Shown here one piece after another: positions 7,952-26,899 of a DNA stretch of 50,738 bases. The notes under the pieces are model-generated. The model was given only the letters and a program-made list of their open reading frames with translations, ran no database searches and was not told the origin of the DNA. The stretch is from Desulfobacteraceae bacterium (GTDB lineage: Bacteria; Desulfobacterota; Desulfobacteria; Desulfobacterales; JAABTS01), in assembly GCA_011389735.1 (NCBI GenBank), contig JAABTS010000018.1, forward strand, positions 1-50,738, in the 5' to 3' direction. How positions within the stretch are numbered: the stretch's first letter is position 1; the number at the start of each line of letters is the position of its first letter. A program made the translations under genes and the position numbers.

Positions 7952-9571
7952 ATGATCAGGAACTTGAAAATCCATTATGTTTTGACAGCCGCCGTTTTGA
8001 CAATATTGGCGGGGTGCGGGGGAGGGCGGCCGGTGTCTCCGCAAGGATCGTATGGCGGCGTTTCAGAGGCGGAGGCCAATCTGGCGCATGCGATGGCGAG
8101 TGTTTCGGAAGCCCGATACACCGAGGCCCTCGAAGAATTTACGTTAATACTGGAAAATAGTCCGAATAACGCAACGGCCTGCTGCGGCGTAGGCATGGTT
8201 TATGAAAAGATCGGAGACGCCGACAAGGCGGTGCTGGAATATTCCAGAGCGCTGGAAATCAACCCTGATCATCCGGGCGCGCTTTATAACCGGGCGAATG
8301 CGTGGTTGTCAAAAGGGGATCGGAAAAGCGCGATTGCGGATTACAGCCGTTTGATCGAAATCCGGCCTGATTATGGGTCTGCCTGGTATCGGCGGGGTTT
8401 GGCGTCGGCCGAGGAGGGGGATATCGACGCGGCGATTCGGGATTTAAGCAGAGCGCTCAATTTGCACTGGATAGCGAAAGCGTCAGGCGATATGGGCAAA
8501 TCGGTCGAAAGCGGAGCGGCGCTAATGGAAATTCGCACAAAACTGGCAAGGCTTTTTTATGATCGCGCGCTTGCGGAAACTGAGGGGCAAACCGATTCGG
8601 ACGCCATTGTGGATCTAAAACGGGCGTCGGGGGTTCTTGCCGGGGCGGAAAATCTTGAATCCCAGGCCGCATTTCTCCGGGATATAAATCAGAAACGGGC
8701 GCAGATCCTGCTACGGCGTGGGGATTCATACAGGGACGAAAGAGAATATCGGAAAGCGGCCGATGATTACGATGAGGTTTTGGCCCTGTTCCCGATGAAT
8801 GAAGACGCATATATCGGCAGGGGGATAGTACGTATGGAACAAAATGAATTCGAATCCGCCATCGCCGATTTTGATAAGGCGGCCGACTTGAATCCGCGAA
8901 ATGAAAACGCGCTTTATTACCGGGGAACGGCTCGATTCCGGGAAGGTGATGTGAACCGGGCGATATCGGATTTCAACGCCGCGCTGGAGCTGAATCCACA
9001 ATTCGCCAAAGCCTGTTTGCGCAGGGGGGACGCATGGTTTCAGATCGGAAACAACGCTCAGGCCTATGAAGATTATAGCCGCATGATATCCATGGATTCC
9101 TCAAAGGCCGAAGCCTTCTATAAGCGGGGGCTTGTCCTGGAAAGACAGGCGAATTACGAACAGGCGATCCGGGATTACTCCAGGGCGCTCGAATTAAAGC
9201 CGGATTATGTAGAAGCAGCCTACCGGAGGGGAATATGCTATAAAAACAGCGGAAAACATCAAGAGGCCATTGACGATTTCGGCCTTGTTCTGGATAAAAA
9301 TCCCAACCATGCGGAGGCGTATAATTATCGAGGGGTGTTACGGGTCATGACCAATGAAATCGATACGGCTATCAAGGATTTCAACCGGGCCGTCCGCCTG
9401 AACCCCAAAGCGGCTCAGGTTTACAGCCATAGGGGCATGGCGTTTTATAAAAAGGGCAATTTGTCGAGAGCCCTGGCCGATGTTCAACGGGCCCTGAAAT
9501 TATCGCCCGGAAACGAAGAGTACGGGGCGGCGGCGCACGCCATTAAAGCCAGGCTAAAAAAAGGGAAATAA
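7952..9571 (+). CDS. TPR-repeat lipoprotein
   Basis: The start was set at 7952 because GGAGGTG (7941-7947) sits just before it and because the protein then opens with a clean lipoprotein signal: MIRN, a hydrophobic stretch, and the lipobox LAGC. An ATG 36 bp upstream is possible but lacks a ribosome site. After cleavage at the cysteine, about 500 residues consist of tandem TPR units (repeats of 'A...RG.A....G....AI.DY.RA.EL.P'), roughly eleven of them with a less regular stretch in the middle. TPR solenoids bind protein partners; lipidation places this one at a membrane facing the periplasm. No enzymatic domain is seen and the partner is unknown. Confidence 0.87.
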   Translation: MIRNLKIHYVLTAAVLTILAGCGGGRPVSPQGSYGGVSEAEANLAHAMASVSEARYTEALEEFTLILENSPNNATACCGVGMVYEKIGDADKAVLEYSRALEINPDHPGALYNRANAWLSKGDRKSAIADYSRLIEIRPDYGSAWYRRGLASAEEGDIDAAIRDLSRALNLHWIAKASGDMGKSVESGAALMEIRTKLARLFYDRALAETEGQTDSDAIVDLKRASGVLAGAENLESQAAFLRDINQKRAQILLRRGDSYRDEREYRKAADDYDEVLALFPMNEDAYIGRGIVRMEQNEFESAIADFDKAADLNPRNENALYYRGTARFREGDVNRAISDFNAALELNPQFAKACLRRGDAWFQIGNNAQAYEDYSRMISMDSSKAEAFYKRGLVLERQANYEQAIRDYSRALELKPDYVEAAYRRGICYKNSGKHQEAIDDFGLVLDKNPNHAEAYNYRGVLRVMTNEIDTAIKDFNRAVRLNPKAAQVYSHRGMAFYKKGNLSRALADVQRALKLSPGNEEYGAAAHAIKARLKKGK

Positions 9572-9593
9572 AAAAAACCTCCTCACGCTCCCA

Positions 9594-9647
9594 GGGGATT
9601 TGCAATCCCCGCCGGCAACGAGAATGACACGCGGGTTACAAACCCGC
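9594..9647. repeat. Pair of short palindromes (REP-like) between convergent genes
   Basis: Two perfect hairpins, GGGGATT-tgc-AATCCCC (9594-9610) and GCGGGTT-aca-AACCCGC (9631-9647), lie between the converging TPR and PIF1 genes. They may act as a bidirectional transcription stop; there is no clear T-run. Confidence 0.6.
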
Positions 9648-9679
9648 TCAAAGCCGTCGCATGGAGCAGCCGACGGTCA

Positions 9680-11881
9680 TCACTCAGCATTTTTAGACAA
9701 TTTCTTCCGTAACTCCGCCTGCGGGGTTTCCATTCCGTATTCTTCCCGGTAGGCGGAGACCATTGCTAAAATCTCCTTTCCATACTTCTTGACGGTTTTA
9801 GCGCCGACGCCGTTTATTTGTCTTAAATCAGCGGAAGTTCCGGGCAAAGACTCCACAATTTGAATCAACACCCGCTGATGCAGCACTTGAAAATGAGCGA
9901 TGTTTTCCGATTCGGCCTTTTGGGAGCGCCAATCTTTCAAGGCGTGGAAAAGTTCGGTATGCTCGATTTCCGATTCCTCCATCGAGGGCGCTTTTGCCCG
10001 CTTTTCCGGTTTTTCCGGTTTTTCTTTCCAATCCGCATTCGACACGGCTCGAATATAATCGGCCGGCGAAAACCCGTTCTCGCAGGATTTTACGCCCGCC
10101 TGCTTTACGGCGATCTCCTTTTTCAAGAGATCCAGGGCCTGGGAGATTTGCCTTCGTAACTCTTTATTGTCGGTTTCCACCTGTATTCGCTTCACCGGAT
10201 CTTTCAAAATCAGAGATGTTTGTTCCTGAAACCACGCCGAAGCTTTGCCGATTCGTTCCAGAACGAAAGCATCCGAATCAGGGGAATGTGAGTCGTTGAA
10301 CAGGGAACGTAATTGTCGTTTGAACTTTTCACCGACATCGAGTATCGTATCCCTGCACGATTGTTTCATCCCTTCGATATCGACGGCTCCCGATATTCTC
10401 AGCACTCTGGCGTTATCCGTCAAAATTCGGGCCAGACGGTCAATGCGTCCTTGCAGGCGGTGAAAATCAAAACATTCCAGTAATAATTGCTGCTGATAAA
10501 TGATTTTGGCTTCCTGAAGCCGCTCTTCCGTTGGAGGTTTTTCTCTTGCGGCGTCGTCAAACCGGAGGACATCCCCATCGGTGCGAACCCCGTTGGGGGG
10601 AATGGGAGAACTGAACACCATGCCTTCAAATGTCCGGCAACGGCTCAACGCAACATACACCTGGCCGTGCGCAAAGGCGGATTGGATATCGATGACGGCT
10701 CTGTCAAACGTCAGCCCCTGGCTTTTATGAACGGTAATGGCCCAGGCTGTTTTCAGCGGATATTGTTCGAAGGCCCCTGTCACTTTTTCTTCGATTTCAC
10801 CTGTCTCCGGGTTCGCCTCGTACTTGATATTCTTCCACTTCACGGGCTCCACCATGATTTCCGCGGGATCGTCCGGACAGACCACGCTGATGGAATCTTC
10901 CAAAAACGCTTTGATTTTGCCGATTTTACCATTGAAATAGCGCTTTTCGGGTGATGAGTCGTTACGAAGGAACATGACTTGCGCGCCGACTTTAAGCACC
11001 AGCGTTTCCGGCGCCGGATACTGATGCTCGGGAAATTCCCCGCTGATTTCGGCTTTGAACCGTCTTTCTTTCTTCTCGATGGCTTGAAGCCGGGTCCTGT
11101 TGACGGCGTCGGCTCTGGCGTTATGTGTCGTCAAAGTGATATATCCTTGCCCGTCGTCCGGTTTGAAATCCGGAATATAACGCTGGTTAAGGGCTTCAAT
11201 GGCGGATTGGTCTAGCCTGTTGTCACGAACCCGGTTCAACAGCCGGATAAATTCCTGATCCGACTGCCGGTAAATGTGTTTCAATTCTATAGTGACCAAA
11301 TCCGTTTTGGCGAGAGCGTGGCTGCTGAAAAAATACACGGAGTCGTAATGCTCCTGCAAGAGCCTCCATTCATCGGCTTTAGCCACCGGTGAAAGCTGGT
11401 GGAGATCGCCGATCATCAGTAACTGGACGCCTCCGAACGGTTGATTGGAACGTCGGCGCCGCCTTAGAACCGAATCCACGGCGTCGAGCAGATCCGCCCG
11501 CACCATGCTGATTTCATCGATTACCAGCAGGTCAAGGCTTTTGATTATCCGTATTTTCTCCTTGCTGAACCGGTGAAACCGTCCACGGCTGCTTTCATAA
11601 GCGTCGGAGCCCGGGATAAAAGGCCCGAACGGTAACTGGAAAAACGAATGGAGCGTAACGCCGCCGGCGTTAATGGCCGCAACCCCGGTCGGAGCCGTGA
11701 CGATCATTCGCTTGACAGTGTTTTGCTTTAATTGGTGCAAAAAAGTGGTTTTGCCTGTTCCGGCTTTGCCCGTCAAAAAAATGTTGCCGCCGGTGTGATT
11801 CACGTAATCGCCGGCCAGCCTCAATTCAGGATTCGGAGGCGATGAAGATGAGTCCGGAGTAGGTGGGATCGTGTGTTTCAT
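9680..11881 (-). CDS. PIF1-like superfamily 1B DNA helicase with C-terminal HRDC domain
   Basis: The 733-residue protein has a PIF1/RecD-type helicase core: Walker A GKAGTGKTT (residues 38-46), TAPTGVAA, LLVIDEISMV (Walker B), IGDLHQL, a late TVHKSQGLTF and a final YVALSRCRT motif VI. Residues about 640-715 match an HRDC domain (VLHQRVL, then a helix-hairpin GVGAKTVKKYG), a DNA-binding module found in RecQ and RNase D proteins. PIF1 proteins unwind G-quadruplexes, R-loops and forked DNA; the HRDC would add structure-specific binding. The gene has no close same-strand partner and converges on the TPR gene. The fusion is known in bacteria, so it is not itself new. Confidence 0.88.
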   Translation of the reverse strand: MKHTIPPTPDSSSSPPNPELRLAGDYVNHTGGNIFLTGKAGTGKTTFLHQLKQNTVKRMIVTAPTGVAAINAGGVTLHSFFQLPFGPFIPGSDAYESSRGRFHRFSKEKIRIIKSLDLLVIDEISMVRADLLDAVDSVLRRRRRSNQPFGGVQLLMIGDLHQLSPVAKADEWRLLQEHYDSVYFFSSHALAKTDLVTIELKHIYRQSDQEFIRLLNRVRDNRLDQSAIEALNQRYIPDFKPDDGQGYITLTTHNARADAVNRTRLQAIEKKERRFKAEISGEFPEHQYPAPETLVLKVGAQVMFLRNDSSPEKRYFNGKIGKIKAFLEDSISVVCPDDPAEIMVEPVKWKNIKYEANPETGEIEEKVTGAFEQYPLKTAWAITVHKSQGLTFDRAVIDIQSAFAHGQVYVALSRCRTFEGMVFSSPIPPNGVRTDGDVLRFDDAAREKPPTEERLQEAKIIYQQQLLLECFDFHRLQGRIDRLARILTDNARVLRISGAVDIEGMKQSCRDTILDVGEKFKRQLRSLFNDSHSPDSDAFVLERIGKASAWFQEQTSLILKDPVKRIQVETDNKELRRQISQALDLLKKEIAVKQAGVKSCENGFSPADYIRAVSNADWKEKPEKPEKRAKAPSMEESEIEHTELFHALKDWRSQKAESENIAHFQVLHQRVLIQIVESLPGTSADLRQINGVGAKTVKKYGKEILAMVSAYREEYGMETPQAELRKKLSKNAE

Positions 11882-14629: not shown

Positions 14630-16582
14630 TTACAGTGTTTCGCCGTCCAACGCATTGCGCACGGAAACAGCGAATTCACGCATATTCAACGGTTTTTCGA
14701 TATATTTGGAGATTCCCAGAGCGCGAGCTTTTTGGGAATCGATCTGTTCACTGAAGCCCGTGCATAGAATGACCGGGATTTCCGGGCGCGTCGCCTTGAT
14801 CTCGCGAGCCAGTTCGGCTCCGGTCATCCCGGGCATGGTCATGTCCGTTACGACCAGATCGAAGGTATGGGGCCGGGACTTGAAAAGCGCAAGCGCTTGA
14901 ACCGGGTTTGATTGAACCGTGACCCGATATCCCAGCCGTTCCAGCATTGACTTACCCAATTCCAGGAGGCCGGCTTCGTCGTCAACTAATAACAGACTTT
15001 CCGCGCCTCCGGGAATACTTTCCGAAACAGGGGACTCATTTTTATCCGGATTCGATATCAATGGGAACAGGATTTTAAACGTGGTGGTCTTACCGGGCTC
15101 GCTGTATATGGAAACGGCGCCGTTATGGCTTTTCACAACCCCGTGAACAACCGCCAATCCCATTCCAACGCCTTCGCCCACCTCCCTGGTCGTGAAATAG
15201 GGTTCCAAAATCCGGCCCTTGATTTCCGAAGGAATTCCGTGCCCGGTGTCGCTTACCGATATGGAGAGATACCGGCCTGGAAAAATGTCCGTATATTGAG
15301 AGACGTCGGTCTCGTCGAGTTCAAGCGTTCTGACGCTGACTTCAAGAATTCCGCCGTTTTCCCGCATGGCGAAAACCGCATTGGCGCATAAATTGACCAG
15401 GGCCTGATGGATTTCCGATGGTTCCGCAAGAATTTCGCCCGTGTTTTCCGGTATGTTCTTTCGGAAATCGATGGCGTCGGACGTCGAGGTTTTAATCAAT
15501 TTCAGGACATCTTCGATTATAGGGCCGATCTTGATTGGTTTTCGGCGTCCCTCGGATTTTCGCCTGAAACTAAGAAGCCCGCGAACTACATCCTTCGCCC
15601 GAAGAGACGCTTTTATCACTTCATCCAGATTGCGCCGGGCCGGATTCCATTCTGGAATATCGTCAATCGCCAGTTCCGTGTTGCCGATAATGATTCCCAG
15701 GATATTGTTGAATTCATGGGCTACGCCCCCCGCAAGCGTAGCCGCCGCTTCCATTTTATGGGCCTGGCGAAGCTGAAACTCCAGCTTTTTCCGGTAGGTG
15801 ATATCCGTATGGGCGCCGACCACCCGCCGAACCGATCCCTGCCCGTCCCGCTCGACAACCTTCCCCCGGCTCATGATCCATTTCCAATCGCCGGAACTCG
15901 TTTTAAGGCGAAATTCCATCTGGTAGGCGTCTTTTTCACCGGCCGCCAGCGCGGTTTTCAGCGCGGACACTTTCGACCGGTCGTCGGGATGCACGAACGG
16001 CTCCCAGGCGTCCGCCGCCGGACGTTCGGCGCAAGGGCCGTATTCCAACTGAGTGCAAAGCTTCGGGCTTAAATAAACAGAGTTCGAGGGAATATCCCAA
16101 TCGTAAAGCCCTTCGTTCGCCGCTTCTATCGCCAGCTTGAAACGCTCTTCGCTTTTTCGGAGCGCCGCCCGGGTTTCTTCAAGCGCCTTTTCCGTTTCAA
16201 GCGCCTCTGAAACCTTCCGAACCACCGACGGCAGCATATCTATAAAATGGGCGTCCTTGATTAAATAATCTCTTGCCCCCAGTTTCATCATTTCCACGGC
16301 GGTCCGTTCATCCCCGCAGCCCGTGATAATAATGAACGGCAAGCTGATTCCCGCCTGGCGCAATTGCTCCAAAATTTTTTCGCCGTTGGTTTTTCCGAGC
16401 TGGTAATCGAGCAGAATCAAATCCGGCGACGCATCCACCACCGCCGACAGCGCTTTCGATCCATCCGTGCAGACCGATACTTTGTATCCTGACCGTTCGA
16501 GATTTTTTTGAATCAAAAACGCCAGATCCGCGTCGTCTTCAAGTATAAAAACACCGCCCGCCGCCGCTGATCGCTTTTCCAT
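14630..16582 (-). CDS. Hybrid histidine kinase: REC-PAS-HisKA-HATPase-REC
   Basis: This 650-residue soluble protein has a receiver at each end. The N-terminal REC (about 11-115) has acidic pocket EDD and the phospho-acceptor Asp59 (LILLDYQ). It is followed by a coiled linker, a PAS_3 domain (about 145-262), a dimerisation helix with GGVAHEFNN (His289), HATPase_c (N box NLCANAVFAM, DTGHGIP, GVGMGLAV) and a C-terminal REC (about 530-645, VTDMTMPGMTG). A GAGGGA ribosome site precedes the ATG. The N-terminal REC may receive a signal from another kinase and the C-terminal one relay or quench it. The membrane kinase gene follows by 10 bp. Confidence 0.92.
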   Translation of the reverse strand: MEKRSAAAGGVFILEDDADLAFLIQKNLERSGYKVSVCTDGSKALSAVVDASPDLILLDYQLGKTNGEKILEQLRQAGISLPFIIITGCGDERTAVEMMKLGARDYLIKDAHFIDMLPSVVRKVSEALETEKALEETRAALRKSEERFKLAIEAANEGLYDWDIPSNSVYLSPKLCTQLEYGPCAERPAADAWEPFVHPDDRSKVSALKTALAAGEKDAYQMEFRLKTSSGDWKWIMSRGKVVERDGQGSVRRVVGAHTDITYRKKLEFQLRQAHKMEAAATLAGGVAHEFNNILGIIIGNTELAIDDIPEWNPARRNLDEVIKASLRAKDVVRGLLSFRRKSEGRRKPIKIGPIIEDVLKLIKTSTSDAIDFRKNIPENTGEILAEPSEIHQALVNLCANAVFAMRENGGILEVSVRTLELDETDVSQYTDIFPGRYLSISVSDTGHGIPSEIKGRILEPYFTTREVGEGVGMGLAVVHGVVKSHNGAVSIYSEPGKTTTFKILFPLISNPDKNESPVSESIPGGAESLLLVDDEAGLLELGKSMLERLGYRVTVQSNPVQALALFKSRPHTFDLVVTDMTMPGMTGAELAREIKATRPEIPVILCTGFSEQIDSQKARALGISKYIEKPLNMREFAVSVRNALDGETL

Positions 16583-16640
16583 AATTTCCCTCTCTCGGGA
16601 CTATTTGTTGGCTCGGTTCTAATTTCGGCCATTTTAATAA

Positions 16641-16714
16641 AACCACGAAATAAACGAAGCACACCAAAAAAAATTTATCAATATTTTCGTGTGTTTTCGT
16701 CTATTTCGTGGTAG
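16641..16714. repeat. Inverted repeat of the 'ccacgaaa...tttcgtgg' type
   Basis: Arms of about 24 bp (aaccacgaaataaacgaagc and following bases, against gtgtgttttcgtctatttcg and following bases) enclose an AT-rich loop. Similar hairpins are scattered through many environmental genomes. It fills the promoter side of the hybrid-kinase gene; the rest of 16583-16865 shows nothing else. Confidence 0.6.
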
Positions 16715-16865
16715 TATCCAAAAACATAATCGGCCGGTTTTCGAACCAACCCCCTATTTGTTTTTTTCAGGCATGAGTTCAGCCTTTATCGGTTTTCATG
16801 TTCCTACAGTCGATGTCATCGAGCAAGAACAGAGCCGCGACAGCGCCCAAAGCCCACATACCAAA

Positions 16866-17348
16866 TCACAAACCGTTCGAATGTACATCTCCCTTTACAC
16901 AAAGCACTTTTCCCTCAATATCGGGAACTCGCACAATATCCAGAAATGCGCCCAGATTGTGTATGGTTTCCACAAAACGATCGTACTCCACCGGCTTTAC
17001 AATATAATTGTTGCATCCTTGTAAATGACATGTCTCGATCTCACGCGGATCATCCGTGGTCGTAAGCATGATAACCGGCATCACCTTCAGCTTCTCGTCG
17101 TTCTTGATCCTTTTGAGAACATCCACTCCGTCCATCTTGGGCATTCTGATATCCAGCAAGAGCAAATACGGCGTTTCGGGTTTACGGAACGGTCCGCTCC
17201 CTTCCCGGCATAAAAACCCAACCACCGCCTCCCCATCCTTGAAACGAACCAGTTCGTTCAAAATCCCGGCGCGGCGAAGATTCCTTTCGATCAAGATTGC
17301 GTGTCCCTCGTCATCCTCCGCCACAAGAATGGTCACTTCCGGATCCAT
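16866..17348 (-). CDS. Single-domain response regulator (Rcp1-like receiver)
   Basis: A stand-alone receiver of about 160 residues. The start at 17348 is preferred over 17366 because AAGGA precedes it at 8 nt. It carries the acidic pair AEDDE near the N-terminus, the phospho-acceptor in LLLLDIRMPKMDG, the Thr in MLTTTDD and the conserved Lys in YIVKPVEYDRF. The inserted loop between beta-2 and the acceptor (CREGSGPFRKPET) is typical of Rcp1-type receivers, which pair with phytochrome-like or PAS kinases. There is no output domain, so it acts through protein contact. It lies upstream of the hybrid kinase on the same strand, separated by about 280 bp. A cognate kinase nearby is plausible but not shown. 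Confidence 0.9.
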   Translation of the reverse strand: MDPEVTILVAEDDEGHAILIERNLRRAGILNELVRFKDGEAVVGFLCREGSGPFRKPETPYLLLLDIRMPKMDGVDVLKRIKNDEKLKVMPVIMLTTTDDPREIETCHLQGCNNYIVKPVEYDRFVETIHNLGAFLDIVRVPDIEGKVLCVKGDVHSNGL

Positions 17349-17380
17349 TTGAGGTCGTCCTTCCATTTTTATCCTGTTAT

Positions 17381-17480
17381 ATTCTATTTCAGCAATTAAA
17401 TTTCACAAAGCGGCCGACAAGCGGTCATACGATTCGTATATCCAGGAACAGCGGCGCAACGAAATTTGATTTCCGGAAGG
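17381..17480. repeat. AT-ended palindromic element (MITE-like family), short copy
   Basis: The left arm (ctatttcagcaattaaattt and the next bases CACAA) and the right arm (cgaaatttgatttccggaag) are inverted repeats around a central gcggccgacaagcgg/gtatatcc core. The arms match the ends of the full copies at 4474-4669 and 34251-34432. Confidence 0.65.
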
Positions 17481-17549
17481 AGATTTCAGGGGGCAGGTTT
17501 CAGGGGGGGCAGGTTCAAGGGGGCGGGTTGAACCGGAATTATGAAAAAG

Positions 17550-17618
17550 CCTCCACCCTGCACCCTTATTACCTGCACCCTTTTACCTGCACCCTGTACC
17601 CTTTAACCTTGCACCCTT
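17550..17618. repeat. Short tandem array 'cctgcaccctttta', copy 1
   Basis: Five imperfect repeats of a 10-14 bp unit (variants of ctgcacccttttac) lie just after the 3' end of the NtrC-like regulator gene. A shorter array of the same unit lies at 19236-19279, just upstream of that gene. The G-rich stretch at 17487-17528 (gggggcaggtt units) is its complement-like counterpart, so the region can form a large imperfect hairpin. Confidence 0.6.
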
Positions 17619-17623
17619 CAGAG

Positions 17624-19069
17624 TCAATCGCTCCCGCCGCCGGCCGAATCATCATCATCTTTGGCCAGGTATTTAACCAGGGTTTGCCGGGTGATTCCCA
17701 GGATGCGCGCCGACAACGACCTGTTGTTTCCTGTGCGCTGCATGGCCTCGAGCGCCATCAGCCTCTCGACGTCTTTCAGAGGGGGCAGTTTTTTCCATCC
17801 GGAAATCGCCATTCTTTCTTCAGCCAGCATATCATCCGTAATGTTTTCCGAAAGGGGTTTATTATTGCTCAGGTACGAATCAAAGGCGTCGATTTTCACG
17901 GTTCCCGATTTGTTTTGAGCGGCCGCTTCGAATATCATTTTTTTCAATTCCGAGATATTGTTAATAAATGGATAGCTGGAGAGGAGTAGGGGGAGGTTTT
18001 TGGGATACCTGTATGGTTTGGCGTCTGAGTTTTTAGATGCGGATTTGAAAAAGTGATCGATGAGGAGAGGCAGGTCATCGGTTCGTTGCCGCAAGGGGGG
18101 GATTTCGATCATATTGGCCGCCAGCTTGTTGTACAGGTCGTACCGCAAAGATTTGGATTCAATGAGCGACGCCGGATCTTTCACGGTTGCGAACACAAGC
18201 CGGGTGTCCGGGATTCTTGTGTTATTGGTTCCGGGTATGGTGAATTTTTTGGACTGGATGAGTTCGAACAGCGCTTTTTGAACGGCGTCGGGAATATCCT
18301 CGATTCCGTCAAAATATAGCGTGCCGCCCTGGGCTTTCAGAAGCTCTCCCCGCACCGGCTTTTCTTTTTTTGCGCCTGTCCCTTTAACGTCCCGACCGAA
18401 AATGATCTCGTTAAAGCGGTCCTTATCCGATTCCGAGGGCTTGATATAAACAAACGGCCCGTCTTTGTCGCTGATCGAATGAATCGTTTCAGCGAAGAAT
18501 TGTTTTCCGACGCCGTATTCGCCGGTAATCAGCAGATGGGAGTTAGTAGGGGCGACGGCTTCGGCGTATTTGTACACGGAGATCATTTTGGGATTTTGAG
18601 TAATAATGCGGTTGAATACTTCCGGGTGTTCGAATTCCTCGGATAGAATTGATTTTTTGAGGGATTTGTTTTCCCTGCTGAGTTCCCGGAAGCTTATACA
18701 ACGTTTGACGCATGGAATCAACTGGGTTTCATCGATGGGTTTCACCAGGTAATCATAGGCGTTGTTTTTGACGCAGCGAACGGCGGTTTCGGTTTCATTG
18801 ACGGCGGTCAGGATAATGACCGGGATTTCGGGATACCGCGCCGTGGTCGCGGCAAGCAGTTCCTCTCCCGACACGCCGGGCATTTTTAAATCCATCAGAA
18901 TCAGACATACCTCGGTTTTACTCAGAATCTCCATTACTTCAAGAGGATCCCAGCATGGGACAATGTTGTTGATTCCATTGTTTTCGAGTACTGATTCCAC
19001 CATTTCAAGGGCTTCCTTTTTATCATCCACAATCAGGATCGGCAGGGAGGGATAAGATATCTGTTTCAT
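17624..19069 (-). CDS. NtrC-family response regulator with degenerate sigma54-activator motifs
   Basis: 481 residues: receiver (about 10-125, phospho-acceptor Asp60 in LMDLKMPG), AAA+ domain (about 152-385) and a Fis-type DNA-binding helix-turn-helix at the C-terminus (TGNNRSLSARILGITRQTL). The Walker A is GEYGVGKQ (183-190). The GAFTGA loop that contacts sigma54 is missing: the corresponding segment reads FGRDVKGTGA. The Walker B reads LYFDGI instead of LFLDEI, so the catalytic Glu is Gly255, and the second arginine of the FREDLYYRL finger is a lysine (LRYDLYNKL). It therefore probably does not activate sigma54 RNA polymerase and may repress or bind DNA in a phosphorylation-controlled way. 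Family membership is clear; activity is inferred. Confidence 0.88.
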   Translation of the reverse strand: MKQISYPSLPILIVDDKKEALEMVESVLENNGINNIVPCWDPLEVMEILSKTEVCLILMDLKMPGVSGEELLAATTARYPEIPVIILTAVNETETAVRCVKNNAYDYLVKPIDETQLIPCVKRCISFRELSRENKSLKKSILSEEFEHPEVFNRIITQNPKMISVYKYAEAVAPTNSHLLITGEYGVGKQFFAETIHSISDKDGPFVYIKPSESDKDRFNEIIFGRDVKGTGAKKEKPVRGELLKAQGGTLYFDGIEDIPDAVQKALFELIQSKKFTIPGTNNTRIPDTRLVFATVKDPASLIESKSLRYDLYNKLAANMIEIPPLRQRTDDLPLLIDHFFKSASKNSDAKPYRYPKNLPLLLSSYPFINNISELKKMIFEAAAQNKSGTVKIDAFDSYLSNNKPLSENITDDMLAEERMAISGWKKLPPLKDVERLMALEAMQRTGNNRSLSARILGITRQTLVKYLAKDDDDSAGGGSD

Positions 19070-19106
19070 GACGGCCTGTTATTTCCTTTCGTTATGTTTG
19101 ATCGTT

Positions 19107-19233
19107 TGGCGTCCTTCATCTGTCAGTTTACACTTTGAAATCGGGATCGCTATCGCTATCGGGATCGGGATCGCTATCGCTATCGAGAGCGAATTGTTTC
19201 GATCCCGATAGCGATCCCGATCCCGATCCCGAC
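19107..19233. repeat. GATCGC/GGGATC hairpin element with conserved flank, copy 1
   Basis: Runs of tatcgc and gggatc units form a long stem around gagcgaattgtttc. The element, including the 30-bp outer flank ttggcgtccttcatctgtca and the following gtttacactttgaaa, recurs inverted at 40759-40857. A 60-codon frame across it is a by-product of the repeat. Confidence 0.8.
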
Positions 19234-19235
19234 TT

Positions 19236-19279
19236 GGTAACCTGCACCCTTTTACCTCCACCCTTTAACCTGACCCCTT
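19236..19279. repeat. Short tandem array 'cctgcaccctttta', copy 2
   Basis: Three imperfect units (acctgcacccttttacctcc, then accctttaacctgacccc) overlap the 3' end of the REC-kinase gene and match the array at 17550-17618. The two arrays bracket the regulator gene at 17624-19069. Confidence 0.55.
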
Positions 19280-20581
19280 GTTTATGAAAGCCGGTAACGA
19301 TATTGTCGCAATCGTTCCTTTACCTTCCTCTGAGGAAAAGGAAAGTTTCCCCTTATTTTTTTTGACAAGGCGATTGGACAGCATGATTCCGATTCCGGTC
19401 CCGCCGGTGTCGGTTTTGGTGGTGAAGTAGGGGTCGAAAATTTTGGACATATTTTCATCTGGAATGCCGACGCCTTCGTCCTTTATCAGGATGCCGACGG
19501 TGTCGTCGTTTTTTTGGCGAACCGTCCGGACCTGGATGGATTGTTGAGGCCCTTCGAGCGCATGGCAGGCGTTTTGAACCAGATTGACGATCACCTGTTC
19601 AAGTTCCTGATACGCGCATTTCACGTAAGGCGTTTCCTCGTACACAACTTGAAAATTGCCGGTGGATTCACGGATGGCGGGGGCTAGAAACGTCAGAGCG
19701 GATTCGATGACCTTGTTCACGTCGATATATTCATGCGTCTGAATTTCGCCTTGTTTCCGATAGTATTCCTTCAACTCCTCCACAATGGTTTTAATCCTGT
19801 GAACGCCTTCATTGATGGCGTCGAAAGATTTCGCGAACTTGCGTTTAAACCTTTCAACGGGCTGATTGAAATACAAATCCGCTTCGTCATCATCGACACG
19901 CTGTTCGATCAGAGGGATCACCTTTTCCCACATGCCTTCCAGAGAGTTGGCGCTTAACATGACGTAATTGACGAGATTTTTGATTTCATGGGAGATTTCG
20001 GACACCATGGCTCCCAGGGCGCTCATCTTTTGAGCGTGGGTGAGCAGATTTTCCATCATATGGGTTTCATCCCGCTGCTGATCCAGTTCGCGTTGCCGAT
20101 CCAGCAATTTCATGTTGATGCTGGAAATATGGTTTTCGAGTTGGTCACGGTAGCGTTTGAGGGCCACATGGGCGCGAACTCTGGCGGCTACTATCTCCTG
20201 ATTGAAAGGTTTGGTGACGTAATCCACGGCGCCCAAAAGGAATCCGCGATACTGGTCCTCCGGCTTGTCCCTGGCGGTGACGAATATGACCGGGATGTGT
20301 TTGGTTCGTACGTCTTTTTTCAGGGCCTCGCAAACGTTATACCCGTCCATTTCCGGCATCATTATATCGAGGAGAATCAATTCAGGAGGAACGCTTAATC
20401 GAATCATTTCAAGTGCTTCAATCCCGCTTTTGGCGAAACGCACCTGAAATTCCTCCTTCAATGTGTTCCCTAAGACCCGGATGTTCATGGGGTCGTCATC
20501 GACGATCAACACGTAATCATCCGCCCCCCGGTCCAGGTACGGCGGCGAATTCGATTCTATGTCTTTATCAAATATCGACAT
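19265..20581 (-). CDS. REC-histidine kinase (receiver fused to a soluble kinase)
   Basis: This 438-residue protein has a receiver (about 22-140; acidic pocket VDDD, phospho-acceptor Asp72 in LILLDIMMP, Lys in VTKPF), a coiled coil, a dimerisation helix with SEISHEIKN (His198) and an HATPase_c domain (NLVQNACHALEG, DEGVGIP, GTGIGIML). The phospho-acceptor helix has two extra turns of charged sequence (about 205-260), as in kinases that act late in phosphorelays. No membrane segment is present. The receiver at the N-terminus suggests that another kinase controls this one. It lies upstream of the degenerate NtrC-like regulator on the same strand; the two could form a relay, which is inferred only from proximity. 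Confidence 0.9.
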   Translation of the reverse strand: MSIFDKDIESNSPPYLDRGADDYVLIVDDDPMNIRVLGNTLKEEFQVRFAKSGIEALEMIRLSVPPELILLDIMMPEMDGYNVCEALKKDVRTKHIPVIFVTARDKPEDQYRGFLLGAVDYVTKPFNQEIVAARVRAHVALKRYRDQLENHISSINMKLLDRQRELDQQRDETHMMENLLTHAQKMSALGAMVSEISHEIKNLVNYVMLSANSLEGMWEKVIPLIEQRVDDDEADLYFNQPVERFKRKFAKSFDAINEGVHRIKTIVEELKEYYRKQGEIQTHEYIDVNKVIESALTFLAPAIRESTGNFQVVYEETPYVKCAYQELEQVIVNLVQNACHALEGPQQSIQVRTVRQKNDDTVGILIKDEGVGIPDENMSKIFDPYFTTKTDTGGTGIGIMLSNRLVKKNKGKLSFSSEEGKGTIATISLPAFINKGSG

Positions 20582-20848: not shown

Positions 20849-22240
20849 TCAAAAGTCATCGGGATATCGAATGTCCGGGATGCTCCGGCGGTAGACCATG
20901 AACCGGGCGTCGGCGGCGGCCTTGAGAGGGCCGACGTTTACATCGACGTAATCGAAAACTTTCGGAGTGGGTTTGCCTTCGGCGGGACGCAATATCCGGC
21001 CGATATACTGAATGACTCTGCCGCTGAACCGGATCGGAGTAGCGATAAAGAGGGATGTCAGGTTTTTGCAATCAACGCCTTCGCCGATCAATTGCCCCGT
21101 GGCCACAAGAGCCTTGATTGTTCCGTTGTCGATGTCGTCCAAAATCGCTTTTCGTTCGGCCGGGCCCGTGTCTCCCGTCAATATCGCGGCTTCGATCCCG
21201 TGTTCGTGTTTCATTAGATCAAAGAGAATCCGGCAATGGCGTTTTCTGTCGGACAGCACCAGAACTGCGCCGTTATTCTCCCTGCATTCCCTTGCAGCGT
21301 CCGATGCGATCAGACGGTTCCGTTCATCATCGGCGGTCAGTTCGGAAAGCATTTTGCTGTATTCCACGGTGGGGTCGTGAAAGGGTTTGAACGCGGTTTT
21401 ACGGAACACGATATCCGCCTGGAGGATATGTCCCTGATCCACCAGTTCCGCGCTTTCGATTTTGTAATGAAGATCTCCGAGATACCAGCAGATCAACCGG
21501 GACAGCTTGTCCCGTCTGTATGGCGTTGCGGAAAGGCCGAGCATATACCGTGAATCGAATGCGGCGATTGCTTCCGTAAATGTGCGGCTGGGAGCCCGAT
21601 GGCATTCGTCGGCCACGAGAAACCCTATTTTTTGAGCCGCCTCGTCCGTATGTTTATATAAGGTTTGCACCATGGCCACGGTTATTTTTTCACCGATTTC
21701 GCGTTTGCCCGATCCGATCAGACCGATTTCGTCCCGGGGGATAGCCAGAAAACGGCTGATTCTTTCAATCCACTGTCGGGCCAACTCTTTTGTGTGGACG
21801 ATGATCAGGGCCGGTTGAGCCCGAACAGCGATCATATAAAGCGCCATGACGGTTTTACCGCATCCGGTCGGGGCGCATAACACCCCGAATTCCTTTGAGA
21901 GCATTCGATCGACGGCCTTTTGCTGAAACGGCTGCAAATTCGCGTCGAACGAAAACGTCACCGGCGGCGCCGATTTGCGCCGGTCGTCAAGGAGGTAAGG
22001 CTGGTTTTGGTTCCGACATTCCAGCAGTAAACGGCGAATGTAGCCCCTTGGTATTTCGATCCCGCCGGAATCAGTTCGATCGAAAAAGGTGAGGAATTTT
22101 GGAGTCCGGCCGTTCCACCTCCCGCGCCGGTCGTTTTCCGCCCACACCGGATTGATGAATTTCAACCGGAGGGTCAGATCGTGTTCGAAATCCTTTGGAA
22201 CGTCCTCCAGGATAAGCTTGTTCGACAATATGATTTTCAA
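20849..22240 (-). CDS. Superfamily 2 DNA/RNA helicase (SSL2/UvsW/Res-like)
   Basis: 463 residues beginning at a TTG codon; an in-frame stop just upstream excludes a longer start. The N-terminal 90 residues are a small accessory domain. Then come the SF2 motifs: FQQKAVDRML (Q-like), Walker A APTGCGKT, a VHTKELARQW motif Ia, DECHRAPS (motif II DECH), LSATPYR (motif III), and in the second lobe a VLSDRK strand, ALVATGQLIGEGVD and QYIGRILRP (motif VI). The architecture matches the XPB/SSL2 and UvsW-like group of helicases that remodel DNA forks or restart transcription. A nuclease domain is absent. The gene starts 25 bp after the stop of the GspE-like gene, so it is probably co-transcribed with it. 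Confidence 0.85.
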   Translation of the reverse strand: MKIILSNKLILEDVPKDFEHDLTLRLKFINPVWAENDRRGRWNGRTPKFLTFFDRTDSGGIEIPRGYIRRLLLECRNQNQPYLLDDRRKSAPPVTFSFDANLQPFQQKAVDRMLSKEFGVLCAPTGCGKTVMALYMIAVRAQPALIIVHTKELARQWIERISRFLAIPRDEIGLIGSGKREIGEKITVAMVQTLYKHTDEAAQKIGFLVADECHRAPSRTFTEAIAAFDSRYMLGLSATPYRRDKLSRLICWYLGDLHYKIESAELVDQGHILQADIVFRKTAFKPFHDPTVEYSKMLSELTADDERNRLIASDAARECRENNGAVLVLSDRKRHCRILFDLMKHEHGIEAAILTGDTGPAERKAILDDIDNGTIKALVATGQLIGEGVDCKNLTSLFIATPIRFSGRVIQYIGRILRPAEGKPTPKVFDYVDVNVGPLKAAADARFMVYRRSIPDIRYPDDF

Positions 22241-22265: not shown

Positions 22266-24641
22266 CTAGTTGACAATGTACAATCTGCGGATTTCAGCCA
22301 TATCGGTGATTCCGTTGAACACCTTTAAAATCCCTTCCTGTTTCAAGGTGGTCATCCCCGACCGCATCGCCTGCCATCGGAGATCTTCCGGGCCGAGTTT
22401 CATTTTGATCATGCGTTTCATTTCATCATCCACCGGCATGAATTCAAAAATAGCGGTTCTACCTTGATACCCGGTGTGGCGGCAGGCGTCGCAGCCTTCA
22501 GGGGTATACAACGTCAGATCTTTGGAGTAGGGGATATCGGGACCTTTTTGAAAATCCTCGACGCCGTATTCACGCACCAGATCGTCATATTCTTCCCGGT
22601 CCGGGTGTTTCGGTCTTTTGCAACGGGGACAGAGCATTCTAGCCAGTCGCTGAGCCAGGATACAGGACAGGGCGTTGGATAGATTCCATGAATTGATTCG
22701 CATTTCCAGAAATTTGGTAATGCAGTCCGGAGTGTCGTCGGCGAACACCGATCCCAGCACCCGTTTGCCGCTCAAAGCCGCCTCCACGGCCATGGCGGCC
22801 GTTTTTTCGTCCTTGATGTTTCCGATCATCACGGCGTCCGGATCAGCCTGCAATACGAATTTAAGGGCCTCGGGATATCCGAAACCCTGGTTGCGCCGGA
22901 GCCTGACCTGACTGACGGTCTTGTGTTCGATTTCAATCGGATCTTCAATGGTCCATATTTTAGTGTCAATGGTGTTGATGTGCGCGACGATGGAATGAAG
23001 AGTGTTGTTTTTTCCGGACGCGGCGGCGCCTGCCGTAAGTATCAGCCCGTAAGGTTTCTCGATATGTTTTACGGCTTTTTCGTAAATACCCGGTGAAAAA
23101 CCGCAGTCTTGAAGTTTGGCGGCCCGTCTCTGCACCGCTATTTTAACGGATAAGGCTTCCGTGTCGCCCAGTACCGGGATAGCGGTGGTTAAAAGCGCAA
23201 TCCGCCGGTCGTCGGGCGATTTCCAGTGAATTTTACCGTTTTGAGGCGTTTTATGGGCCGATACGTCCAGACCGGCCATCCGTTTAATCCGAGATATGAG
23301 TTCGATTGTGACGTGTTCCGGATAGGTCGCGTAAACCGTCAGGCGGCCGTCAATTCGAAATCGAACGACGCTGTTGCGGTTTCCGGGATTCGGTTCCACA
23401 TGGATGTCCGATGCGTTACTCGCCAGGGCTTCCGTGACAAGGGAGTGGAAAAGGTTGGCCACGGCGCTGTGCAGATCTACGGCGCCGGTCGGTTCGGCCT
23501 TCCCGGGCGCGGCGTTTTCTTCTTCCGGAAGAAATGATTCCTCCGTATCGACCCCTTCCTCTTCGACGGCGAATTGTTCCGCAGGCGACAACGGCTTTGC
23601 GTTTTCATCCTCTTCCATCACGGCGGTAAAATGATCGATAAACGCCAGGATATCGGATTTCAAAGCCACATTCAAATACAGCGTCATGTTGGGAAAGACG
23701 GCTCGAATTTCGTCCACCCGCCATAAATCGTAAGGATCGTCGATAGCGACAAAGGCGGCGTTTTTTTCTTGTCGTATCGGAACCCAGAGGCTCTTTTTCA
23801 AAAAACGGGTTTTCAATCCCTTTAGAAGCGAATGAGGAACGGGAGCGAACGGATCGAATTCAACGAACGGGACATGGTAATAATCCGCCAGCGATTCGCC
23901 TATAAGCACCTTGGAAACGCCATAGTGTTCCATCAGGACGTTTTCCGGGGGCCGGCCGGTTTTGACGGACTCGGAAACTGCTTTGCTCAAATCGTTGTGG
24001 GACAAAACCATTTGCCGCACCAGATAGCCGAATTCGGCGCCGGACGCGGAAACCGATTTTTTCCGGTTGAAGAGATTGACGCCGATCATCCGGGCCAGCT
24101 CCAGGGCCATTTGTTCGTCTTCCGGAGTGAAAACGCCTCCGTTTTTGCGGTTCATCACTTCCATGACGCCCATGAGGTAGTTCCGGATAATGATCGGAAC
24201 GGCAAGCACCTGGCGGGTGGTGAAGCCCGTTCGGTCGTCCCAGCGTTTATCGAATTCGAGCCCTTCGCCGATTTGCTGCAATTCGGTTTTATCGTTTACA
24301 TCGGCGATGTTCAGAATTTTCTGATTGAGCGCAGCGTAACCGGCGATGCTTTTTCTGGAAATGGGAATCCGAATTTCAGCGATCTCGCTTTTTGACATGA
24401 ATCGCGACACCAGTTCTTTGGTCGTGCCGTCAACCACATATATGGTGATTCGTTCGGCCTCGAAATAATTGATGATATCCTCTTTCAGATCAATCAATAT
24501 CGCATCGATGTTTTTAGCGGCCAGAATTTTTTCTCCCAACTCTTTCAACATCGCTCTTTTGTCCGATACGGATAATGATTGACGGACGGAATTCATATCG
24601 TTCGGTTCCGACGGTTTGTCGGGCTGTTTTTTACGCGCCAT
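22266..24641 (-). CDS. GAF-fused GspE/PilB-like protein with degenerate ATPase motifs
   Basis: 791 residues: a GAF domain (about 35-195, ending VMEVMNRKNG), a GspE N-terminal (T2SSE_N-like) domain (about 205-345), an acidic linker, and a type II/IV secretion ATPase core (about 395-790) with SDIHVEP, RIDGRL and four cysteines (CPRCKRP, CDACRHTGY). Key residues are altered. The Walker A is AGAAASGKNNT (537-547) where functional proteins have GPTGSGKTTT. The Walker B reads MIGNIKDEKTA (605-615) with Asn608 for the catalytic Glu. The His box reads GSVFADD instead of STLHTND. Lys544 and the Asp-box IEDPIE remain. It probably binds nucleotide weakly or not at all and may be a regulatory paralogue in pilus or secretion control. 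The start overlaps the DHH gene by 11 bp. Confidence 0.9.
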   Translation of the reverse strand: MARKKQPDKPSEPNDMNSVRQSLSVSDKRAMLKELGEKILAAKNIDAILIDLKEDIINYFEAERITIYVVDGTTKELVSRFMSKSEIAEIRIPISRKSIAGYAALNQKILNIADVNDKTELQQIGEGLEFDKRWDDRTGFTTRQVLAVPIIIRNYLMGVMEVMNRKNGGVFTPEDEQMALELARMIGVNLFNRKKSVSASGAEFGYLVRQMVLSHNDLSKAVSESVKTGRPPENVLMEHYGVSKVLIGESLADYYHVPFVEFDPFAPVPHSLLKGLKTRFLKKSLWVPIRQEKNAAFVAIDDPYDLWRVDEIRAVFPNMTLYLNVALKSDILAFIDHFTAVMEEDENAKPLSPAEQFAVEEEGVDTEESFLPEEENAAPGKAEPTGAVDLHSAVANLFHSLVTEALASNASDIHVEPNPGNRNSVVRFRIDGRLTVYATYPEHVTIELISRIKRMAGLDVSAHKTPQNGKIHWKSPDDRRIALLTTAIPVLGDTEALSVKIAVQRRAAKLQDCGFSPGIYEKAVKHIEKPYGLILTAGAAASGKNNTLHSIVAHINTIDTKIWTIEDPIEIEHKTVSQVRLRRNQGFGYPEALKFVLQADPDAVMIGNIKDEKTAAMAVEAALSGKRVLGSVFADDTPDCITKFLEMRINSWNLSNALSCILAQRLARMLCPRCKRPKHPDREEYDDLVREYGVEDFQKGPDIPYSKDLTLYTPEGCDACRHTGYQGRTAIFEFMPVDDEMKRMIKMKLGPEDLRWQAMRSGMTTLKQEGILKVFNGITDMAEIRRLYIVN

Positions 24642-26046
24642 ATTTTACCTCGTCGTTTCGTTCCGGCGGCGGTTCGGTTAGTGCTTTTCTCTCGGTCATG
24701 TCCTTGACGATCGTATCAGTGTCCGATGTGGAATGGTAAAAATAATTCATGGCGTCGGATCTTGTTACAATACCTGATAGTTCTCCGTTGTCGATCACGG
24801 GAAGCCTGCCTATATCGTGTTTGACCATCAGCCTGGCCGCCTGAAGGGGACTCTTGTCGGCCGGAATCGTGATGACGTTTCTTTTCATGAAGGCTTTCAC
24901 CGGAGCTCGAAAGGCGCTGTCGCGATTTCGTAATTTCTTGAAATCCCGCCGGGATATCATGCCCACGATTTTGTTGTCCTCGACGACCGGAACACCTGTG
25001 CATCCTTTTTCTCTCAAAAGATCCGCCACCTGGTTCATAGGCGTTTCCGGCGGAACGCTGACAACCGGAAACGACATGATGTTTCTAATCAGTTCCTTGC
25101 TTGACCGGGCGCCTTTCATAATGTTCCGGATCATCTTTTCGGCGGCCTCGGGGTTCGTTTCTTTCAGGAGCGCGGAACCTGCTCCGGGATGCCCGCCGCC
25201 TCCGATCCGGCGCATGATGTTGCCGACATTCAACCCGTCGATTCGGCTTCGGGCAATGACAATACATTTATCATTGTTGCTGAAAATACCAAAAGCGGCG
25301 TCCACGTTCAGAATCTGCATATACATATTCACCACGACCGCCGCGTTTTCCAGATGTCCGTCCATCGCCTGCCTGTTGAATGACACGCTGAATCCGTCTA
25401 TGTCCGACCGCTCGGCCGATTTAAGCATCTTGAACAGCATGTCTTTCTGACGCTCCCCATAAGCGGGCCGCAAAAAATTGGACAGAATCTGCAAATCCGC
25501 CTTTTGATCGAGCAGATAAGCGGCGGCTCGAATGTCTTCAGACGTGGTGGAGGGAAACATCATGCTGCCCGTATCCTCATAAATTCCCGCCAGAAAGAGC
25601 GTGGCCTGCATGGGATCGATTTTGCGGTTTTCATCTTTGAGTTTCCGGATCATCAATGTAATCGCGGCTCCGCAAGGCTCCACATGAATCTCGTCCGCAT
25701 GGATGTGATCGTCCGCATCGCCGGGAGATAGGTGATGGTCCCATACGATTATATGCAGACCGGTTTTTTCCTGAAGCGGTTTGACATGAGATATGCGCGA
25801 CCAGGCGTTGACATCGGTCGCCACAAGCCCGGAAACCCGGTCAAAATCAATCAGGTCGGCGTAATGCACCTCGAAAATGTCCTTGTGAATCGAATAAAAC
25901 GCCTTTACGTTAGGGTTCACGTTTTTCGGAATCACCGCAATGGTTTCCGGATATAGCAGAGTTGCGCAAATCACCGTTGCAAACGCGTCGAAATCCATGT
26001 TCCGATGCGAGGTTGCAATCCAAAATGGTTCAGTTGTCTTTTCCAT
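24631..26046 (-). CDS. DHH-family phosphoesterase with two CBS domains
   Basis: From the ATG at 26046 (preceded by CGGAG) this is 471 residues; a longer frame to 26109 would overlap the upstream gene much more. The N-terminal half is a DHH phosphoesterase: SHRNMDFDAFA (metal motif I), VWDHH (DHH, residues 103-105), YEDTGSM and the DHHA1 glycine motif GGGGHPGAGS. Two CBS domains follow (about 345-460), each with a 'GVPVVEDN'- or 'RLPVIDNG'-like strand; they normally bind adenine nucleotides. The family resembles the N-terminal part of the CBS-DHH CCA/polyA-polymerase group, but no nucleotidyltransferase domain is present. The substrate may be nanoRNA or a cyclic dinucleotide. It overlaps both neighbours. 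Confidence 0.88.
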   Translation of the reverse strand: MEKTTEPFWIATSHRNMDFDAFATVICATLLYPETIAVIPKNVNPNVKAFYSIHKDIFEVHYADLIDFDRVSGLVATDVNAWSRISHVKPLQEKTGLHIIVWDHHLSPGDADDHIHADEIHVEPCGAAITLMIRKLKDENRKIDPMQATLFLAGIYEDTGSMMFPSTTSEDIRAAAYLLDQKADLQILSNFLRPAYGERQKDMLFKMLKSAERSDIDGFSVSFNRQAMDGHLENAAVVVNMYMQILNVDAAFGIFSNNDKCIVIARSRIDGLNVGNIMRRIGGGGHPGAGSALLKETNPEAAEKMIRNIMKGARSSKELIRNIMSFPVVSVPPETPMNQVADLLREKGCTGVPVVEDNKIVGMISRRDFKKLRNRDSAFRAPVKAFMKRNVITIPADKSPLQAARLMVKHDIGRLPVIDNGELSGIVTRSDAMNYFYHSTSDTDTIVKDMTERKALTEPPPERNDEVKYGA

Positions 26047-26899
26047 TGGACGCTCCGGGCCGGGATGAGGGCGGCGTAGTATTGTCGTCTTCTTCTTTCC
26101 ACGCCACAAGCGGAATATCTTCGTCCCCGGTCTTGTGATATTCCAGGCTTGGGCCCATCTTGACGCCGTGAGTGTATTCGAGCTTCATTTTATATTTGTC
26201 CACTTCCACCTGGCTGTCTATGGCTTTGCCTGCCAGCCGGTATTTTAAATAAATAATCCAGATGATCAAGGCGAAAATCATCAGGGACGCCGTCAGAAAA
26301 AACCATTTGAAACGGATCAGGGTGTCGATTCCAACACGGCCGACATATGTCGCGAAATTCGGTATGATCCAGTACAACAGAACGCTGAATAGAACCAGAA
26401 AACCTATCACGAAAATATTGAAGCGGCTCACGCCGGCGATAATCCTTTCCATACGCGTATGATACTGGCCGTTTTCAGCGTTTTTGGCGAACGACAGCTC
26501 ATCTTCGTTGTGAAAAAGCGCCATATAGGCTTTCACCACAAAGGCAAACAGGAGGATCACGCCGATGGGAATCCCCACGGCCGCAACAAACCAGGCGCGG
26601 AACGGAAAGGGGCGATCGTTCTTCACCAGCTTTACCTGGTAATCGTCAAACGATCCGAAGGTTTTTTCAAAATAATATTTGTTGAAATCGCTTAAATTTT
26701 TACCGTCCGTTTCATGAATCAGATTACCGTTGTTGTCCATGACCTGAAGCTTATAGTCAGTCCCTGACTTCAAAGCCGCCACGGCGAAGATCTCCAGCTC
26801 GATCAAAAACAGGCCGACGGCGATAATGATGATTATGGTTTTGTTTTCCCTGGCCAGGTCCGCCAATTTTTTTCGTTGTGGCATGTCGTTATTTTCCAA
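26030..26899 (-). CDS. Four-helix inner-membrane protein of unknown function
   Basis: Up to 289 residues (TTG at 26899 is 11 nt from an AGGAGGT; ATG at 26884 is the alternative). Hydrophobic segments lie at about 20-42, 112-135, 158-180 and 196-217. A loop of about 65 residues between the first two is probably periplasmic, and the charged C-terminal tail (about 220-289) is cytoplasmic. The gene overlaps the DHH-CBS gene by 17 bp and is first in the row that includes the GspE-like gene and the SSL2-like helicase, so it is likely the membrane partner of one of them. No family was recognised. Confidence 0.75.
   Translation of the reverse strand: MENNDMPQRKKLADLARENKTIIIIIAVGLFLIELEIFAVAALKSGTDYKLQVMDNNGNLIHETDGKNLSDFNKYYFEKTFGSFDDYQVKLVKNDRPFPFRAWFVAAVGIPIGVILLFAFVVKAYMALFHNEDELSFAKNAENGQYHTRMERIIAGVSRFNIFVIGFLVLFSVLLYWIIPNFATYVGRVGIDTLIRFKWFFLTASLMIFALIIWIIYLKYRLAGKAIDSQVEVDKYKMKLEYTHGVKMGPSLEYHKTGDEDIPLVAWKEEDDNTTPPSSRPGASNGKDN

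Follow-up and report, generated by a model that had tools for sequence, protein, structure and literature searches.

The window analysed here, a stretch of 50,738 nucleotides that makes up the entire contig C79 of a Desulfobacteraceae genome (6.5 Mb in 477 contigs), carries a gene for a PilB/GspE homologue that appears to have lost catalysis while its GAF domain was preserved. The explanation that we favour, and to which we assign a probability of roughly two in three, is that a PilB-type motor has lost its catalysis and become a signalling scaffold under GAF control. Because the fold and the sensor domain are kept, and because the same locus is occupied in a distant relative, the gene is probably not a broken one but encodes a signalling protein that arose from a motor. 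An earlier reading made from the letters of this DNA (the sequence-only reading) had proposed a pseudo-ATPase with a GAF sensor, and this proposal is strengthened by the recurrence of such losses in Desulfobacterales bacterium HSG16 and in the genus g59 (family f59), and by a selection that seems to be centred on the GAF domain.

The gene and its product

The open reading frame begins with ATG and runs for 791 codons with no internal stop, which bears out the uninterrupted frame described previously; its G + C content at the three codon positions (0.56/0.37/0.61) is similar to that of the neighbouring genes. The T2SSE profile of Pfam is matched with 278 bits over profile positions 6-370 of 370. 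In NCBIfam, the nearest families are PilB and GspE, at about half the equivalog cut-off; for type_IV_pilB (TIGR02538), the protein scores 353 bits against a cut-off of 675.65 (676) and is thus below equivalog level. It is a PilB/GspE (T2SSE) homologue by fold and ancestry. The c-di-GMP receptors of the MshEN type carry two 24-residue motifs, each beginning with RLG. Despite the Pfam match to MshEN, the first motif region of the window protein reads FGYLV and lacks the Arg in the alignment, and this Arg is also absent from the canonical GAF-PilB relatives. The coordinates of the features are collected in Table 1.

Table 1. Features of the pseudo-PilB gene, its product and its neighbours in the window
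Feature	Position	Strand	Evidence
GAF-MshEN-T2SSE pseudo-ATPase gene (791 aa)	22266..24641	minus	ORF, Pfam, NCBIfam
GAF domain, aa 47-189; 12/12 invariant residues kept	24075..24503	minus	Pfam and alignment
MshEN domain, aa 255-341	23619..23879	minus	Pfam
T2SSE ATPase core, aa 392-786	22284..23468	minus	Pfam
First arginine finger replaced by Leu484 (GmPilB R271)	23190..23192	minus	R in 87/87 canonical
Second arginine finger replaced by Lys500 (GmPilB R286)	23142..23144	minus	R in 87/87 canonical
Degenerate Walker A GAAASGKNN, aa 538-546, Lys544 kept	23004..23030	minus	alignment
Asp box TIEDPIE, aa 564-570, intact; E570 = GmPilB E357 (Mg ligand)	22932..22952	minus	alignment
Degenerate Walker B MIGNIKD, aa 605-611, Asn608 in place of the catalytic Glu	22809..22829	minus	alignment
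Lost His box SGKRVLGSVFADD, aa 624-636, without either His	22734..22772	minus	alignment
Zinc Cys pair 1, C671 and C674, kept	22620..22631	minus	alignment
Zinc Cys pair 2, C717 and C720, kept	22482..22493	minus	alignment
DEAD/ResIII-type helicase gene, downstream	20849..22240	minus	Pfam; orthologue directly downstream of HSG16 pseudo-PilB
Upstream DHH-DHHA1-CBS gene, probably starting at an ATG near 26046	24631..26109	minus	Pfam and comparison
Membrane protein gene, upstream; conserved in HSG16 too	26030..26899	minus	comparison

A structure was predicted with AlphaFold2 from an alignment of 22 relatives (mean pLDDT 75, pTM 0.42, with the relative placement of the domains unsure). The GAF domain and most of the core were folded with fair confidence, and the stretch around the Asp box (563-587) had pLDDT values below 50. 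The best PDB matches found by Foldseek were PilF/PilB of T. thermophilus, GspE of V. vulnificus and PilB of G. metallireducens, with TM-scores to the target of about 0.8 for PilF and PilB (0.82 to PilF 5oiu for the predicted model). As modelled, the window protein has a PilB fold preceded by a GAF domain.

Loss of the catalytic residues

The active site was compared with 87 aligned canonical relatives, in which every position scored as lost is invariant (87/87). Functional roles were taken from the assignments for G. metallireducens PilB (GmPilB; McCallum et al. 2017, PMC5424180), in which E395 is the catalytic Glu, E357 in the Asp box is a Mg ligand, H420 touches the gamma-phosphate, T411 and H413 belong to the His box, R271 and R286 are the arginine fingers and R455 makes an inter-chain contact. 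The mapping is our own and adds 213 to the GmPilB numbers (214 at R286, owing to one extra residue near 494); the canonical set carries the letter of that paper at every mapped position.

Eight of these otherwise invariant residues are replaced in the window protein: R484 by L, R500 by K, T540 by A, T545 by N, E608 by N, T624 by S, H626 by K and H633 by F. The same positions are standard in the genome's own PilB/GspE proteins, where T545 is Thr or Ser; the Lys followed by Thr or Ser of a motor's Walker A is thus reduced to Lys544, with Asn at 545. The motifs GAAASGKNN (538-546), MIGNIKD (605-611) and GSVFADD (630-636) had been quoted exactly, and the loss of the Walker A Thr, the Walker B Glu and the His box stands; the list was incomplete, since both arginine fingers are lost as well. 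Lys544, the Asp box (with E566 and the Mg-ligand position E570) and the four Cys of the zinc site are intact, as had been claimed, and R668 (GmPilB R455) is also kept. Judged by these residues, the protein is without nearly everything that ATP hydrolysis requires and does not carry the sequence signature that defines a working PilB/GspE motor.

The losses are unevenly distributed. The GAF domain keeps all 12 of its invariant residues, whereas the ATPase core keeps 80 of 135 (Fisher p=0.004). Within the core, active-site invariants were lost more often than the others (17/27 vs 38/108, p=0.015); as this enrichment is only moderate, much of the core appears to be relaxed, and not the pocket alone.

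A degenerate orthologue in HSG16

An initial scan of contigs with the window protein alone as query found no relative. The window genome contains 11 T2SSE matches and encodes at least seven full-size PilB/GspE-like proteins; one of the matches, on contig C437, is a canonical GAF-MshEN-PilB that is 43% identical to the window protein. Across the order, a GAF-PilB match at E<=1e-140 was present in 197 of 291 sampled genomes. HSG16 harbors two GAF-PilBs, one canonical and one degenerate (JAUCGE010000080.1). The latter reads GPKCCGKTT and MIGDLSG and has no STLHTN; it has lost the catalytic Glu (to Asp), the distal His and both arginine fingers, and it retains the Walker Thr and the first His. The two degenerate proteins come from different families and are 38% identical.

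In the window, the gene order is ACT (divergent), membrane protein, DHH/CBS, PilB and helicase, with 25 bp between the last two; in HSG16, it is ACT (divergent), membrane protein, PilB and helicase, with the DHH/CBS gene on another contig. Other genomes of the order carry the block of ACT, membrane protein and DHH/CBS without PilB, and in some of them (L122, L123) the helicase gene directly follows DHH/CBS, again with no PilB. The adjacency of DHH/CBS and helicase is ancestral, and the DHH/CBS gene is an ancestral neighbour and not a specific partner. The simplest reading is that one GAF-PilB copy was inserted before the helicase gene in an ancestor shared by the window genome and HSG16, and that DHH/CBS was later relocated in HSG16.

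The phylogeny agrees with this arrangement, grouping the window protein with the degenerate HSG16 copy (91/94) and the canonical copies of both genomes with each other (100/99), on long branches; the canonical paralogues of the two genomes also occupy a shared context. As the duplication node is weakly resolved, the orthology rests mainly on gene position. Since HSG16 has a degenerate orthologue at the same site, the window gene is not a lone mutation, and a single-genome mutation or an assembly error is rejected. The sequence-only reading had held that its proposal would be overturned by orthologues that combine this gene context with normal motifs; the same-context orthologue turned out to be degenerate as well, and the normal copies that were read belong to other loci, none of the canonical relatives whose contexts were read lying at the window locus.

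The sequence-only reading had further taken overlaps of the gene with a CBS-DHH gene and a membrane-protein gene as a hint of a nucleotide-signalling complex. The overlap with the DHH/CBS gene is real (24631-24641), and it is this DHH/CBS gene, not the pseudo-PilB gene, that overlaps the membrane-protein gene. Co-transcription is probable for such overlapping genes, and this would suit a complex with the DHH/CBS and membrane proteins; however, the block occurs order-wide without PilB, and HSG16 keeps membrane protein, PilB and helicase together with DHH/CBS elsewhere. The proposal is not upheld by these comparisons, and we consider such a complex extremely unlikely.

Several features of the surroundings were recorded in passing. 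The DHH-DHHA1-CBS protein (24631-26109) is like the N-terminal half of an A-adding tRNA nucleotidyltransferase (NF041569) but stands alone; it is conserved across the order at about 47-56% identity, with genes for ACT-domain and DUF711 proteins close by, and a longer homologue of 914 codons is encoded on C287 of the same genome. The membrane protein (26030-26899; 289 aa) has no Pfam match, and its gene is conserved beside that for DHH/CBS in many of the order's families. Downstream of the helicase gene, positions 14630-20581 hold a dense two-component cluster with receiver-kinase hybrids, an NtrC-type regulator and a lone receiver, and this cluster was not found near the pseudo-PilB gene of HSG16.

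Probably independent degeneration in genus g59

Two genomes of the genus g59 (G058 and G335) carry a canonical GAF-PilB, and two others (G177 and G309, with proteins 92% identical to each other) carry a degenerate GAF-PilB only, no canonical GAF-PilB having been found in either. The degenerate proteins read SGRTT, in which the Walker Lys has become Arg, DDIPDGKT or DDMPDGKT, and FTGPGA. A third protein, from G294 (55% identical to that of G177; its sequence ends at the contig end), has SGRTT and GDMPD with both arginine fingers present, and is thus intermediate. The genes of G177 and G309 stand in exactly the slot that holds the canonical gene in the sister species, flanked by the same upstream cluster on one side and by the methylmalonyl-CoA genes on the other (the gene names around this slot are our own reading of the sequences), which suggests that catalysis was lost in place there. 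Separate origins of the degeneration in g59 and in the window/HSG16 pair are therefore favoured. A common origin of all degenerate GAF-PilBs is disfavoured by the canonical slot and by the intermediate in G294, although a single clade was not rejected by the AU test (p=0.198).

These comparisons bear on whether the window protein could still be an ATP-driven motor with unorthodox catalysis through other residues. Such an enzyme would still have the Walker residue Lys544, the two Glu of the Asp box and Arg668 for the inter-chain contact. However, none of the catalytic Glu, the two His, the two arginine fingers and the Walker Thr is left; the HSG16 protein, with Asp for the catalytic Glu, also lacks both fingers and the distal His; and the g59 proteins have exchanged even the Walker Lys, for Arg. 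We regard a working motor as very improbable.

Selection on the degenerate proteins

The GAF domain of the window protein shows an identity of 0.50 to the canonical set (canonical mean 0.56), and the C-terminal ATPase domain (CTD) one of 0.44 (canonical 0.73). The resulting GAF/CTD ratio is 1.13 for the window protein, 1.34 for HSG16 and 1.17 for G177, as against 0.60-0.85 in all canonical proteins. Core losses in the window protein and in G177 coincide (odds ratio 4.8, p=3e-5): of the core invariants, 49 survive in each of the three degenerate proteins, among them the zinc Cys and both Asp-box Glu, and 28 are lost from each, among them R484, E608, T624 and most of the STLHTN stretch. Judged by conservation, constraint in these proteins is shifted and has not vanished.

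The dN/dS values were obtained solely in the parallel g59 lineage, as the window protein and its HSG16 counterpart are too diverged for the purpose. Between G177 and G309, dN/dS is 0.23 overall, 0.09 in the GAF domain, 0.32 in the CTD and 0.40 in the N2D; in the canonical pair G058/G335, for which synonymous sites are near saturation, it is 0.08 in the GAF domain and 0.02 and 0.04 in the core. GAF domain and core of the degenerate pair differ (p=0.007), and both lie below neutral expectation (p<1e-5). Thus, as estimated in g59, the degenerate proteins are under selection, chiefly through the GAF domain.

It could be argued that the window gene is a redundant duplicate of GAF-PilB that is decaying into a pseudogene: the same genome has a canonical paralogue, the branch in the tree is very long, and 55 of 135 core invariants have been lost. 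Such decay is disfavoured and, in our estimate, improbable. The frame of 791 codons is open with normal G + C content at its codon positions, the gene has been kept in place in two families whose proteins share only 38% identity, catalytic residues have gone while GAF and zinc residues are intact, and dN/dS is well below 1 in the parallel g59 lineage.

A possible signalling ring and its partners

Under the favoured explanation of a dead, GAF-controlled scaffold, a copy of the canonical GAF-MshEN-PilB would have landed between the DHH/CBS gene and the helicase gene before the lineages of the window genome and HSG16 split, as the shared position suggests. As the alignment shows, this copy no longer has its catalytic Glu, His box and arginine fingers, along with further residues, and it still carries the GAF domain, the zinc site, the P-loop Lys and the Asp-box Glu. 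The protein would still fold and would probably assemble as a PilB-like ring or partial ring. Its GAF domain may sense a small ligand or a redox state and so set the state of the ring, to which nucleotide held by K544 and E570 may perhaps also contribute, and this state would be passed to partners through binding, with no hydrolysis of ATP.

The likeliest partners would be the canonical GAF-PilB paralogue of the same cell, through mixed rings or competition, or a downstream regulator, the latter variant being modelled on the ATPase-dead M. xanthus PilB in exopolysaccharide control. In the window genome, the canonical GAF-PilB is the natural candidate; in g59, the dead GAF-PilB is kept without a canonical one, which speaks for an independent role. 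As the sequence-only reading had suggested, the window protein may plausibly control a pilus or secretion ATPase encoded elsewhere.

A narrower form of this explanation makes the window protein a dead regulatory subunit of one specific pilus or type II secretion machine, working in mixed hexamers with another PilB/GspE. The genome offers at least seven full-size PilB/GspE-like proteins, the R455 equivalent and the zinc site are kept, and there is a precedent in PilU, which works only with PilT (PMC6762196). Against this, the window gene and the canonical GAF-PilB genes lie away from pilus and secretion genes, none of which was found beside them in the contexts read, and the dead copy of g59 is the sole GAF-PilB there, with no canonical GAF-PilB partner left. 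We regard such a subunit as possible but rather unlikely, and, given those neighbours, naming the window protein a pilus component is unsupported.

The canonical GAF-PilB itself looks like an orphan (C437 of the window genome, locus L069; also L113 and L068), adjoining, in the genomes read, either branched-chain amino-acid transporter genes or a gene for an M48-peptidase/TPR membrane protein, with no pilus genes beside it. A literature search of partial coverage found no account of its function.

Relation to known systems

The canonical GAF-MshEN-PilB, encoded on C437 and found order-wide, has the domain order, length, GAF invariants and zinc Cys of the window protein, but it also has GPTGSGKTT, VGEMRD, STLHTN and both arginine fingers, and it lies at a different locus. 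The degenerate protein of HSG16 agrees with the window protein in gene position and in the loss of the catalytic Glu, the distal His and both arginine fingers, and differs in its Walker Thr, its first His, the Asp in place of the catalytic Glu and the absence of DHH/CBS from the site. With GmPilB (5TSH), TtPilF (5OIU) and EpsE (1P9R), the window protein shares the fold (predicted, as noted above), the zinc site, the P-loop and the Asp box; unlike them, it has lost catalytic residues, carries an N-terminal GAF domain and falls far below the equivalog cut-offs.

A functional precedent is the Walker A Lys mutant of M. xanthus PilB, which is inactive in ATPase and motility and dominantly turns on exopolysaccharide (EPS) production, nucleotide-free PilB seeming to be the signalling state (PMC5544727). 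Both are ATPase-dead PilBs by mutation or by predicted loss; the mutant signals, and signalling by the window protein would follow by analogy. However, the M. xanthus case is a laboratory mutant of a working motor with no GAF domain described, whereas the dead state is natural and fixed in the window protein. PilU resembles it as a second homologous ring protein that depends on the main motor, but PilU keeps functional Walker A and B motifs and needs its own catalysis (PMC6762196). The same literature search, partial in coverage, found no description of a GAF-linked PilB, a degenerate PilB or a pseudo-ATPase GspE.

PilB/GspE motors are defined by their ATPase activity. If our explanation is correct, a natural PilB that is dead, selected and GAF-linked would mean that the ring itself has a signalling role separable from motor work, and would provide the natural counterpart of the M. 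xanthus mutant, which signals EPS production without hydrolysis. It would also be a warning for annotation, as homology scores such proteins as pilus assembly ATPases though the catalytic Glu, both His of the His box and both arginine fingers are gone here. The window/HSG16 pair, together with the series from canonical through partly to fully degenerate within the single genus g59, makes the question directly testable.

Orphan PilB-like proteins in the order

A broader reading, to which we give slightly less than even odds, is that the orphan PilB-like ATPases of Desulfobacterales form a signalling family in which motor activity is optional, with the PilB ring as a scaffold for signal sensing that can be reused independently of any pilus. 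It is based on the apparent loss of GAF-PilB catalysis at least twice, once in the window/HSG16 duplicate and once in place in g59, and on losses in an MshEN-PilB family.

This second orphan family, MshEN-T2SSE without a GAF domain, is represented in the window genome on C422 (L070, positions 8746-10434) and elsewhere by L197-L214. Order-wide, it has canonical as well as degenerate members, the latter in the window genome, HSG16, G042 and G143, with those of G196 and G073 partly degenerate. The gene on C422 adjoins a gene for an RR-GAF-PAS-adenylate/guanylate cyclase, and in its product the active-site losses were not enriched over other core losses (p=0.67).
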